The translations under genes were made by a program, and so were the position numbers. A stretch of DNA of 42,961 nucleotides from Oscillospiraceae bacterium (GTDB lineage: Bacteria; Bacillota; Clostridia; Oscillospirales; Acutalibacteraceae), in assembly GCA_015066515.1 (NCBI GenBank), contig SVOH01000017.1:1-42961 (forward strand), given 5' to 3'. The notes beneath the pieces were generated by a model, which saw only the letters and a program-made list of their open reading frames with translations, made no database searches and had not been told where the DNA came from. This document shows positions 4,260-42,793 of the stretch, piece after piece. Within the stretch, counting starts at the first letter, position 1. Each line of letters starts with the position of its first letter.

Positions 4260-4298
4260 ACCTTTTGGGTTGGCTACCGCAACCATTTTAAAAAAGGT
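4260..4298 (-). promoter_or_regulatory. Expression-platform hairpin (P13) of the cobalamin riboswitch
   Basis: On the minus strand an outer pair ACCTTTT/AAAAGGT (4292-4298 with 4260-4266) encloses GGTTG/CAACC (4280-4284 with 4268-4272). Its apical bases TTGCGGT (4276-4282) complement the riboswitch L5 loop. The hairpin lies just before the ribosome site, so translational control is likely. Confidence 0.6.
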
Positions 4299-4299
4299 A

Positions 4300-4465
4300 T
4301 TTTGTTCAAAAAATATTCCGACTTCGACGCTGTTGCCTTTCGCCTTCTCGGATTTATCCAATGGCGTGTCCTCTTGTTGCGGCCAAGAGTAGAAAAACAA
4401 CGTTATATGCGTCTTACGGCGACGGGCTCGTACAGGATTTTCACCTGTTTCCTCTTTGAACAAAA
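4300..4465 (-). promoter_or_regulatory. Cobalamin riboswitch aptamer
   Basis: Read on the minus strand, the aptamer has an exact 11-bp P1 helix (TTTTGTTCAAA 4455-4465 with 4300-4310). It also has a B12-box-type core (GGAAACAGGTGAAAATCC and GCCCGTCGCCGTAAG), a P5 hairpin (4371-4389) with loop GCCGCAA, and a downstream GCC...TTGG...GAGAAGGCG segment. The P5 loop complements the P13 hairpin (4276-4282), forming the kissing loop typical of this RNA class. It controls the DUF4430 and ECF genes. Confidence 0.88.
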
Positions 4466-4468
4466 TTC

Positions 4469-4497
4469 ATTTTACAATACACCGCACAAAAAGTCAA
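4469..4497 (-). promoter_or_regulatory. Promoter of the riboswitch-controlled B12 operon
   Basis: On the minus strand, TTGACT (4492-4497), a 17-nt spacer and TAAAAT (4469-4474) lie just before the riboswitch P1 helix. Confidence 0.7.
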
Positions 4498-4553
4498 TTA
4501 AATGTCTTGCACATGCACAGAAATAGCATTTTTGTTCGGATTTTAAAAAAATA

Positions 4554-32151: not shown

Positions 32152-32245
32152 CAGTTATATTCGCCTTTTGGTGAGTGATATTGCCCTTTGGACAGTTAAG
32201 AAACTAATATAATATCGTCCTGTGCGAATCACGGAATATCACTAA
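32152..32245. repeat. Decayed hairpin-array element behind tRNA-Thr
   Basis: It contains a CGCC-TTTT-GGTG hairpin (32162-32173) followed by the linker AGTGATATT (32174-32182), and ends with the inverted linker AATATCACT (32235-32243). GGAATATCACTAA (32233-32245) occurs identically at 42697-42709, at the edge of the well-preserved array. No gene is seen. Confidence 0.5.
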
Positions 32246-41533: not shown

Positions 41534-41561
41534 TATAAAAACAAAAAGCGCACCCAAAAGG
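41534..41561 (-). terminator. Duplicate tRNA-Ser terminator hairpin (remnant)
   Basis: AAAAGCG pairs with CGCTTTT (41534-41540 with 41555-41561). The loop shares CCCAAAAGGAT with the terminator at 41716-41739, showing they are copies. Confidence 0.6.
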
Positions 41562-41577
41562 ATACGCTTTTAAATCC

Positions 41578-41597
41578 GGCGGAGTAGGAGAGACTTG
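41578..41597 (-). pseudogene. tRNA-Ser(GCU) 3'-end remnant
   Basis: These 20 bases are identical to the 3' end of the intact tRNA-Ser(GCU) (41748-41767), covering the acceptor and part of the T arm. The rest of the tRNA is replaced by palindromic sequence. A partial inverted copy (CAAGTCTCTCC) lies at 41683-41693. Confidence 0.7.
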
Positions 41598-41682
41598 CTC
41601 GGCGACAACGTCGCCGACACGCACCCGAACTTTTTAAATGTCCACCGGACATTTAAAATCGACTAAAGCCGACCGTTCTTTT
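41598..41682. repeat. Palindromic hairpin insert within the tRNA-Ser remnant
   Basis: Two strong hairpins with 3-nt loops: an 8-bp TCGGCGAC-AAC-GTCGCCGA (41599-41617) and a 12-bp stem around loop ACC (41632-41658). They are enclosed by inverted copies of GGAGAGACTTG (41587-41597, 41683-41693). No coding potential is seen. Confidence 0.6.
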
Positions 41683-41715
41683 CAAGTCTCTCCAACCAAA
41701 AATACAAAAGCAAAG

Positions 41716-41836: not shown

Positions 41837-41879
41837 AAATGCTTACGCTCTATTTAATATTTGATTGTGCACCACTTTA

Positions 41880-42013
41880 ATATTTTATAGGTTCCTCGGC
41901 TTCGTGCCCTCTTGCGGTGCCCGATGACTCGATGCTGCCGCATCTCACTTATCGACCGCTGCGCCAACAAATACTCGCTGTATCGTCCACCGGACGCGCT
42001 CGTATGTGTTGCC
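41880..42013. repeat. Palindrome-rich non-coding segment between tRNA-Ser genes
   Basis: Hairpins include GATGC-TGCC-GCATC (41931-41944) and CGTCC-ACC-GGACG (41984-41996). The core GTCCACCGGAC of the latter also occurs in the stem-loop at 41641-41650. It leads directly into the 5' remnant of a tRNA-Ser. No gene is seen in 41837-42071. Confidence 0.45.
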
Positions 42014-42042
42014 CGTCACCACCCCAGTACTACTCCAAATGC
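42014..42042 (-). pseudogene. tRNA-Ser(GCU) 5'-end remnant
   Basis: CGTCACCAC (42014-42022) and GTACTACTCCAAATGC (42027-42042) match the 5' end of the intact tRNA-Ser(GCU) and its flank at an offset of 200 bp; only four bases between the blocks differ in part. The rest of the tRNA is lost. Confidence 0.65.
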
Positions 42043-42279: not shown

Positions 42280-42355
42280 GCTGGTGTAGCTCAGTTGGTA
42301 GAGCAGCTGATTTGTAATCAGCAGGTCGGGGGTTCGAGTCCGTCCACCAGCTCCA
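42280..42355 (+). tRNA. tRNA-Thr(UGU)
   Basis: A complete cloverleaf: acceptor GCTGGTG/CACCAGC, D stem GCTC/GAGC, anticodon loop TTTGTAA (anticodon TGT), T loop TTCGAGT and encoded CCA (42353-42355). Confidence 0.95.
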
Positions 42356-42377: not shown

Positions 42378-42462
42378 GGGAGATTTCCCGAGTGGCCAAA
42401 GGGGACAGACTGTAAATCTGCTGGCTAAGCCTTCGGTGGTTCGAATCCACCATCTCCCACCA
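42378..42462 (+). tRNA. tRNA-Tyr(GUA)
   Basis: A complete class II tRNA: acceptor GGGAGAT/ATCTCCC, anticodon stem CAGA/TCTG with loop CTGTAAA (anticodon GTA), variable arm with GGCT..AGCC, T loop TTCGAAT and encoded CCA (42460-42462). It follows tRNA-Thr by 22 nt, so the two are co-transcribed. Confidence 0.95.
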
Positions 42463-42471
42463 AACAAAAAG

Positions 42472-42497
42472 AGATTTGCTTCGGCAAGTCTTTTTTT
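42472..42497 (+). terminator. Terminator of the tRNA-Thr/tRNA-Tyr operon
   Basis: An 8-bp stem (42472-42479 with 42484-42491) with a TTCG tetraloop and a seven-T run. An outer 13-bp stem CACCAAACAAAAA/TTTTTGTTTGGTG (42458-42470 with 42493-42505) extends it back into the tRNA's 3' end. Confidence 0.9.
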
Positions 42498-42510
42498 GTT
42501 TGGTGGAATG

Positions 42511-42709
42511 AAGCGTTCCCTTACGGGAACATTAAGCAGCCTTCGGCTATGAAGACGCTTACGCTAATGAAGTGTGCCTACGGCACGATAAGGAACGCTT
42601 TGCTTCATAAATTCGTAAAGCGAATTTGCATCATGGCGGCAACGCCGCCGCTTCATATTTGCGGAGCAAATGCTTCATTATCACTCCGCCAACGGTGGAA
42701 TATCACTAA
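42511..42709. repeat. Array of short variable hairpins with recurring linkers
   Basis: Seven hairpins with unlike stems: GTTCCC-TTAC-GGGAAC (42515), AGCC-TTC-GGCT (42538), GTGCC-TAC-GGCAC (42574), AAATTCG-TAAAG-CGAATTT (42609), GGCGGC-AAC-GCCGCC (42635), ATTTGC-GGA-GCAAAT (42657), TCCGCC-AAC-GGTGGA (42685). Linkers read ATGAAG in the left half and CTTCAT in the right half, so the array is itself roughly symmetrical. AAGCGTTCC (42511-42519) can also pair with GGAACGCTT (42592-42600). It lies behind the tRNA-Tyr terminator and encodes nothing convincing. Confidence 0.75.
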
Positions 42710-42793
42710 AATTTCCGTCAAGATGAATTTGAAACACCGAAACATAATAATAGGCAGATTTAGCAATTAATAATTACTAAGTCCGCCCTTTTT

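Follow-up and report, generated by a model that had tools for sequence, protein, structure and literature searches.

The row of hairpins behind a tRNA-Thr/tRNA-Tyr operon near the end of the window (the whole stretch of 42,961 nucleotides analysed here) belongs to a widespread, largely undescribed cassette family of gut Clostridia, in which a hairpin array is combined with the gene of a small helix-bundle protein (PF05635) and often with an exchangeable passenger gene. In such a small gene cassette, the array makes up the 5' part; cassettes follow terminators, those of tRNAs and others, and tandem arrangements occur. The family is only partly new, since Rfam already contains, as Gut-1, the left half of one of its linker classes. 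A first-pass annotation, made from the sequence alone, had proposed that the array belongs to a family which may be undescribed or poorly described. A poorly described family is in line with our data. The PF05635 gene, the passengers, the matching of linkers and proteins and the identity of Gut-1 with half of one class were not foreseen in it. The features of the window are the following:

32152..32241, no strand: second, degraded array of class GTGATAT/ATATCAC behind tRNA-Thr (CGT), followed by a promoter-like site and a gene
42280..42355, plus strand: tRNA-Thr (TGT), first gene of the host operon (ARAGORN, Rfam)
42378..42462, plus strand: tRNA-Tyr (GTA) (ARAGORN), elsewhere followed by arrays whose class differs per genome
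42457..42506, plus strand: terminator hairpin immediately 5' of the array, arms 42457-42479 and 42484-42506, 91% complementary
42508..42591, no strand: left half, linkers ATGAAG/ATTAAG/ATGAAG/ATGAAG, hairpins 42514-42530, 42537-42548 and 42573-42587
42592..42608, no strand: centre, GGAACGCTTTGCTTCAT, inverted copy of the first linker and the 5' arm of the first hairpin (inverted repeat I17)
42603..42678, no strand: right half, linkers CTTCAT/CATCAT/CTTCAT/CTTCAT, hairpins 42609-42628, 42635-42650 and 42657-42672
42679..42706, no strand: apparent remnant of an older ATATCAC-class array, last hairpin (42685-42699) and linker, from comparison with locus L128
42718..42741, minus strand: decayed inverted fragment of the tRNA-Tyr 3' part, better kept in locus L067

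The array extends from 42508 to 42678, with the older remnant reaching 42706, and the terminator of the tRNA operon runs directly into it, as had been noted in the first-pass annotation. Seven hairpins of 4-8 bp were found between 42508 and 42706, in agreement with the several palindromes described before; the loops are as short as claimed, while their count was different, a 3-nt loop being possible in six hairpins instead of five and a 4-nt loop in the first. The flip in linker orientation was found as described, with ATGAAG at 42508, 42549 and 42567 (variant ATTAAG at 42531) on the left and CTTCAT at 42603, 42651 and 42673 (variant CATCAT at 42629) on the right. The segment 42555-42566, located between two linkers, has no proper stem in the window copy. 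The final six bases of the centre double as the first right linker, and the same centre layout was read by eye in the arrays of relatives. Judged by sequence, the stretch from 42679 looks like the end of an older ATATCAC-type array; a remnant-like block is also found in L064-L066 and L057. It is followed in the window by the decayed inverted tRNA-Tyr fragment and a convergent gene. The region 42500-42720 folds as RNA with a z-score of -4.7 on the plus and -3.5 on the minus strand, and none of 200 dinucleotide shuffles folded as well on either strand. An Rfam scan of the window array gave no family at the gathering score and none convincing up to E 1, and no match to PF05635 was obtained in the window. 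The array is not a decayed gene, which had been put forward as the contrary outcome. Elsewhere in the window, a cobalamin riboswitch is located on the minus strand (4291-4501), and an array-like 6-mer score (AAAACG) at 103-309 in a scripted scan is probably a false match. The last 127 bases of the contig (42835-42961) are identical to the start of contig C22, so that the two contigs are probably neighbours.

With the window region as query, arrays of the same architecture with other linkers were found among 60 relatives, 45 of which contain PF05635 homologues. Further loci, the best 80 of 296, were taken from metagenome-assembled genomes (MAGs), for the most part from Clostridia/Oscillospiraceae of rumen and gut; removal of duplicates left 147 of 150 loci, and the genomes are mostly fragmented MAGs. 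The array lies directly upstream of the gene in all of the 16 nearest PF05635 homologues (read by eye). The 340 nt upstream of the gene were scored for a 6-mer that recurs in the left part while its reverse complement recurs in the right part; the cut-off of 7 was reached by 108 of 134 PF05635 loci, compared to 2 of 1340 dinucleotide shuffles, and the other 26 loci were below it. The common order in the relatives is terminator hairpin, left half, right half, promoter-like site, PF05635 gene and, often, an overlapping passenger. In 89 arrays, the linker consensus is RTGA(A/T)(G/A)T, with mostly 2-4 exact linkers on the left, 3-4 on the right and a median spacing of 22 nt; in L088 and in simple arrays the linker orientation is reversed. 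Sixty-three of 136 loci could be classed from the left half alone, 57 of them into four main classes. In these four classes, the reverse complement that matches the left core occurs in the right half at 3.7-4.5 copies per array, compared to 0-0.67 for other cores; the covarying pairs are TGAAG-CTTCA, TGATG-CATCA, TGAAA-TTTCA and GATAT-ATATC. The left-right fit is poorer in six loci of rare or simple class. Segments between linkers (92 arrays) form stems of at least 5 bp in 264 of 398 cases (66%) versus 6% after shuffling, so that the combination of conserved linker and variable palindrome, described previously for the single array, applies to the whole family. Among 309 stems of at least 4 bp, 187 distinct 5' arms were counted. 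Three tandem copies of approximately 202 bp, each comprising terminator and array, are present in the 900 nt before the ORF at 6001 in L147, and the right half occurs in three copies behind the gene in L058.

The gene beside the arrays belongs to the four-helix-bundle family PF05635/TIGR02436 (family E-value 1.4e-27), named after 23S rRNA intervening sequences (IVS). In the accessible parts of the literature, PF05635/S23p proteins are known from rRNA intervening sequences and termed functionally uncharacterised. The structure model (mean pLDDT 95) matches the S23-family structures 2rld and 2gsc; with Avd, TM values of 0.75-0.82 were obtained at E 0.06-0.4. The L073 protein has a slight positive excess only (K+R 16, D+E 13). 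Within the phylum, TIGR02436 was detected in 35 of 199 genomes, as against none of 14 control genomes, and homologues are found in 25 plasmid and two phage records. A 'phage' record from human faeces (L313, MT835815.1) carries tRNA-Arg, a terminator, a GTGATAT array and a PF05635 gene and may be bacterial DNA. Of 30 TIGR02436 loci from the phylum search, 15 have a period-7 repeat upstream (shuffles 0.6%); three of the 30 interrupt 23S rRNA and two RNase P RNA. PF05635 inserts in 23S rRNA are confined to L252, L258 and L259, and the RNase P RNA gene of L264 and L267 (minus strand, 1247-2021) is interrupted, in the manner of an rRNA IVS, by a PF05635 gene and its heptad repeats. From these sequences, a 7-nt repeat beside the PF05635 gene seems to be the common denominator, with the hairpin arrays as its elaborated form. 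On a protein tree of 147 rows, eight linker classes were assigned to 118 labelled rows, up to 14 of them by eye. The linker class changes nine times on this tree (minimum 7; shuffled mean 48.9, none of 200 as low), which indicates matched descent rather than binding, since the tree is short and poorly resolved and near-copies favour a low change count. Co-variation of linker and protein can result from joint descent without binding.

A passenger ORF (at least 60 codons, start between -25 and +160 nt from the stop of the PF05635 gene; some possibly spurious) was found in 86 of 116 loci with at least 600 nt downstream, and its start overlaps the stop codon in 31 of the 86. Pfam was run on 73 of these passengers, 13 short or doubtful ones being omitted, and gave 82 families including overlapping ones, none with more than three members. 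GNAT was found three times, histidine phosphatase, deaminase, nucleotidyltransferase, MazG and pyrophosphatase twice each, and NUDIX, GrpB, VanZ, methyltransferase and others once; no recombinase is among the 25 Pfam families listed for the 73 passengers. The passengers of L147 (tRNA-Pro, GTGAAG class) and L302 (tRNA-Gly, TGAAAT class) are 98% identical, whereas their PF05635 genes are alike only in roughly the last 17 codons. This points to the exchange of a passenger between classes, which can be due to ordinary homologous recombination in the conserved gene end. Common flanks behind different passengers were found in L165/L171, L103/L128 and L301/L306. A second array follows the passenger in L134, L177 and L186 (other class) and in L302 (same class); these tandem examples are taken from loci that were read, and a scripted count (33 of 116 loci with at least two matches) was discarded, as it included false matches such as AAAACG and ACGGCG. 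Some cassettes end with one of two short conserved tails (9 of 116 loci by motif), on which the cassette 3' ends rest.

Some arrays precede other genes or none, including the window copy, which has neither promoter nor protein gene nor passenger. The array of L128, from a sheep-colon MAG, differs from it by five substitutions and one indel (by eye) and has a promoter-like site and then an intact PF05635 gene behind it; the likeness ends right after the last CTTCATT. The host gene adjoining the window array is also present further down in L128, where no tRNA gene precedes the array and only the outer arms of the terminator are shared with the window. In genome G023 (L069, tRNA-Tyr site), the left half is fused to the 3' end of the PF05635 gene. 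With the near-identical gene-bearing L128 array and the G023 fusion, the window copy is most simply read as a gene-less deletion derivative at a repeatedly used site.

For 132 loci with at least 400 nt upstream, a tRNA gene that ends no more than 450 nt upstream of the PF05635 gene was found on the same strand in 90 cases and on the opposite strand in none; the tRNAs cover 19 amino acids. In 77 of 94 arrays, compared to 0 of 94 ORF controls, a hairpin with a score of at least 10 has its end in the 45 nt that precede the first exact linker, and the commonest junction of terminator and array is TTTTG or TTTTC followed by AACTAAG or AATGAAG. Reading by eye gave further locations, where the array follows the end of a protein gene, of 5S rRNA or of RNase P RNA, the RNA genes being confirmed by a separate search. 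Of 30 loci at the tRNA-Tyr site, 24 were readable, with arrays in 13 (own genome included) of types ATGAAG, TGAAG, TGATG, GATAT, TGAAAT and simple, some truncated. The other 11 are without an array, three of their contigs ending within about 140 nt; a remnant may be present in L034. No clean pair of empty and filled site with exact ends was obtained among the loci compared. The window's own genome has arrays at 9 of 31 tRNA/5S operon ends (by eye, one tRNA at a contig end being left aside), among them the second array of the window (32152-32241); at least five linker types are represented, and two of the array-bearing ends have the PF05635 gene intact. When this genome was searched with ATGAAG-N(8-36)-ATGAAG, 26 matches were obtained (0 with the pattern backwards), three of them in the window array and none of the others array-borne by eye. 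The expected recurrence of the same linker was thus not found, which is the wrong test for the family, since each array class has its own linker. Mobile behaviour, as proposed in the first-pass annotation, is supported at the sequence level by similar arrays behind many tRNA genes, occupied and unoccupied copies of a site and exchanged passengers; the accompanying idea that the element builds itself by hairpin-primed copying found no support. In simple arrays (17 of 21 collected, four without upstream tRNA being dropped), the centre matches the arm of its own terminator with a mean of 11.7 and those of others with 6.8, the own arm being best or tied in 11 of 17. The centre as copy of a host target was rejected, as similar terminators occur behind different tRNAs, and for the same reason the terminator is more likely part of the element. 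The terminator hairpin probably travels with it, its outer arms being present in L128 even though the tRNA gene is not.

The two halves differ in the strand that appears to be folded. With identical segments counted once and kinship ignored, 42 of 52 left-half loops on stems of at least 5 pairs are TNC/TNNC and none GNA/GNNA, while 76 of 166 right-half loops are GNA/GNNA and none TNC/TNNC, the rest being of other types. Loops of the type C(GNA)G are very stable in DNA hairpins. An earlier reading of the loops as UNCG tetraloops was dropped, as they are mostly triloops, C(TNC)G on the left and C(GNA)G on the right. Single mismatches, small in number, are seven A.C and no G.T on the left and 21 G.T and eight A.C on the right (P 0.0008); with stems of at least 6 pairs the difference is weaker (left 2 A.C and 0 G.T, right 5 A.C and 17 G.T, P 0.08). 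In loops and tolerated mismatches, the left half on the bottom strand equals the right half on the top strand. These patterns suggest two inverted half-sites which fold on the outward-running strands. The folded strand thus looks to switch at the array centre, which would speak against a single RNA and for a two-sided DNA site.

The comparison with Gut-1 (RF01706) fits this switch. According to the accessible part of the report, it was filed in 2010 as noncoding RNA of human gut sequences with no function given (PMC2864571). Its 77-nt consensus equals the left half of a TGAAAT-class array, with the UGAAAU linker between three hairpins. The gathering score was reached in 5 of 20 loci (L099, L203, L217, L220 and L287) and in both arrays of L302. 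At E 0.01, the model matches both halves on opposite strands in all four arrays tried (L287, L099, L220 and L203). The window array gave no Gut-1 match up to E 1. In 20 further loci, mainly of TGAAG and TGATG classes, no array before the gene was matched; in L123 and L156 a match is located about 5 kb further on. Gut-1 therefore shares the alternating linker/hairpin layout of one array half, while the arrays described here are two-sided, comprise several linker classes and are tied to tRNA ends and PF05635 genes.

We assign a probability of about 0.5 to an explanation in which the array is the 5' part of a cassette, its linkers are bound by the PF05635 protein and its half-sites are folded single-stranded DNA marking the end used for insertion or exchange. 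Each linker class would be bound by an oligomer of one protein clade. The left half would act as a folded bottom strand and the right half as a folded top strand, in the manner of an opened or cruciform site, and the protein-DNA complex would mark the end where cassettes insert behind a terminator or are exchanged. A wider version, proposed tentatively and at slightly less than even odds, is that of a hitherto unrecognised mobile cassette system of gut Clostridia, whose PF05635 oligomer would read clade-specific heptads alternating with freely variable DNA hairpins, insert cassettes behind intrinsic terminators of tRNA operons, stack them in tandem and swap passengers between classes. If the array were instead transcribed, by read-through or on its own, it could act as folded RNA (noncoding RNA, insulator or RNase III substrate). 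The strong folding energy and the location of protein relatives in 23S rRNA and RNase P RNA inserts are in line with this, as are the Rfam entry of Gut-1 as noncoding RNA (PMC2864571, accessible part) and the excision of the Coxiella IVS by RNase III (PMC4990558, accessible part). We regard it as unlikely, given that the array is located by eye between the terminator and a separate promoter-like site, that loops (42:0 left, 0:76 right) and G.T/A.C mismatches (0:7 left, 21:8 right) indicate opposite strands, and that a single transcript offers no explanation for Gut-1 matches on both strands of one array.

As a by-product without function, linkers and hairpins might also be made and homogenised during replication, through template switching and the correction of quasi-palindromes. 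The linker class tracks the protein tree, the halves differ in loop choice and many genera have one layout, which renders this origin improbable, even though the hairpins are often perfect yet unrelated, the simple-array centre copies a neighbouring hairpin arm (own 11.7, others 6.8) and L147 has the tandem copies of about 202 bp. Two movers in trans were considered and rejected, as neither is associated with the PF05635 gene. A Y1 (HUH) transposase, moving a non-autonomous repeat as RAYTs move REPINs, is suggested by the inverted pairs of linker-plus-hairpin units, which resemble the REP/BIME layout; Y1_Tnp was found in 29 of the 45 genomes that have a PF05635 gene and in 9 of the 15 that lack it, and the stems are not conserved, making this mover very improbable. 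A retroelement moved by a reverse transcriptase would agree with the terminator as target, which group IIC introns also prefer, and with the predicted Avd-like fold, for which the TM of 0.75-0.82 comes with E 0.06-0.4. As RVT_1 was found in only 12 of the 45 genomes that carry the gene and in 4 of the 15 that do not, many of them incomplete, and a group II reverse transcriptase in 15 of 60, it is likewise considered highly improbable.

Compared with known systems, the cassettes are similar to 23S rRNA intervening sequences in the PF05635 protein and in the mostly 7-nt repeats with reverse-complement partners beside the ORF; heptamer repeats are reported for the Coxiella IVS in the accessible part of one source (PMC4990558). 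The cassettes differ in that they sit behind the ends of tRNA, 5S and protein genes instead of inside an RNA gene, variable hairpins separate the repeats, both halves are upstream of the gene, and there are an own promoter-like site, passenger genes and tandem cassettes. Integron cassettes are small, with diverse passengers and in tandem, and their attC site is a folded single strand in which the layout is conserved and the sequence is not. The small tandem cassettes described here, with diverse passengers (GNAT, NUDIX, MazG, nucleotidyltransferase) and a putatively folded single-strand site of conserved layout, resemble them, while here the array, which has a strict linker and several hairpins, occupies the 5' end, and the promoter-like site and the PF05635 gene lie inside the cassette. 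REP/BIME/REPIN elements combine a conserved short motif with a hairpin in inverted pairs, as do the arrays, which differ by non-homologous stems (187 distinct of 309), many hairpins per array and PF05635 in place of RAYT as partner. PF05635 has been likened to Avd (PMC10053308, accessible part), and the predicted fold is similar to this protein of diversity-generating retroelements; in contrast to these and to group II elements, RVT_1 was found in only 12 of 45 carrier genomes. CRISPR, with its long identical repeats and unique spacers, differs from the arrays, in which the repeats are 6-7 nt long, the spacers palindromic and the halves inverted. Apart from Gut-1, no description of the arrays or cassettes was found in the literature searched. 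Gut-1, an orphan since 2010, is here joined with PF05635 by a readable code of one heptad per protein clade, and the odd rows of hairpins behind tRNA genes are accounted for by cassette arrays. If the cassette-system reading is true, it provides the first function for the uncharacterised IVS protein family, and the Gut-1 'RNA' becomes one half of a DNA site. The results suggest that rumen and gut Clostridia have a hidden route for exchanging genes, and the heptad repeated on both sides of the array makes binding, mobility and passenger exchange directly testable.

A different, second repeat family is located at tRNA 3' ends in the window (41561-41700 and 41850-42040). It consists of a tRNA end, terminator and inverted tRNA end, an insert with the hairpin GTCCGGTGGAC and another tRNA 3' end, and was found at 6 of the 31 tRNA/5S operon ends of the own genome as well as in L033, L049, L055, L091 and L092.
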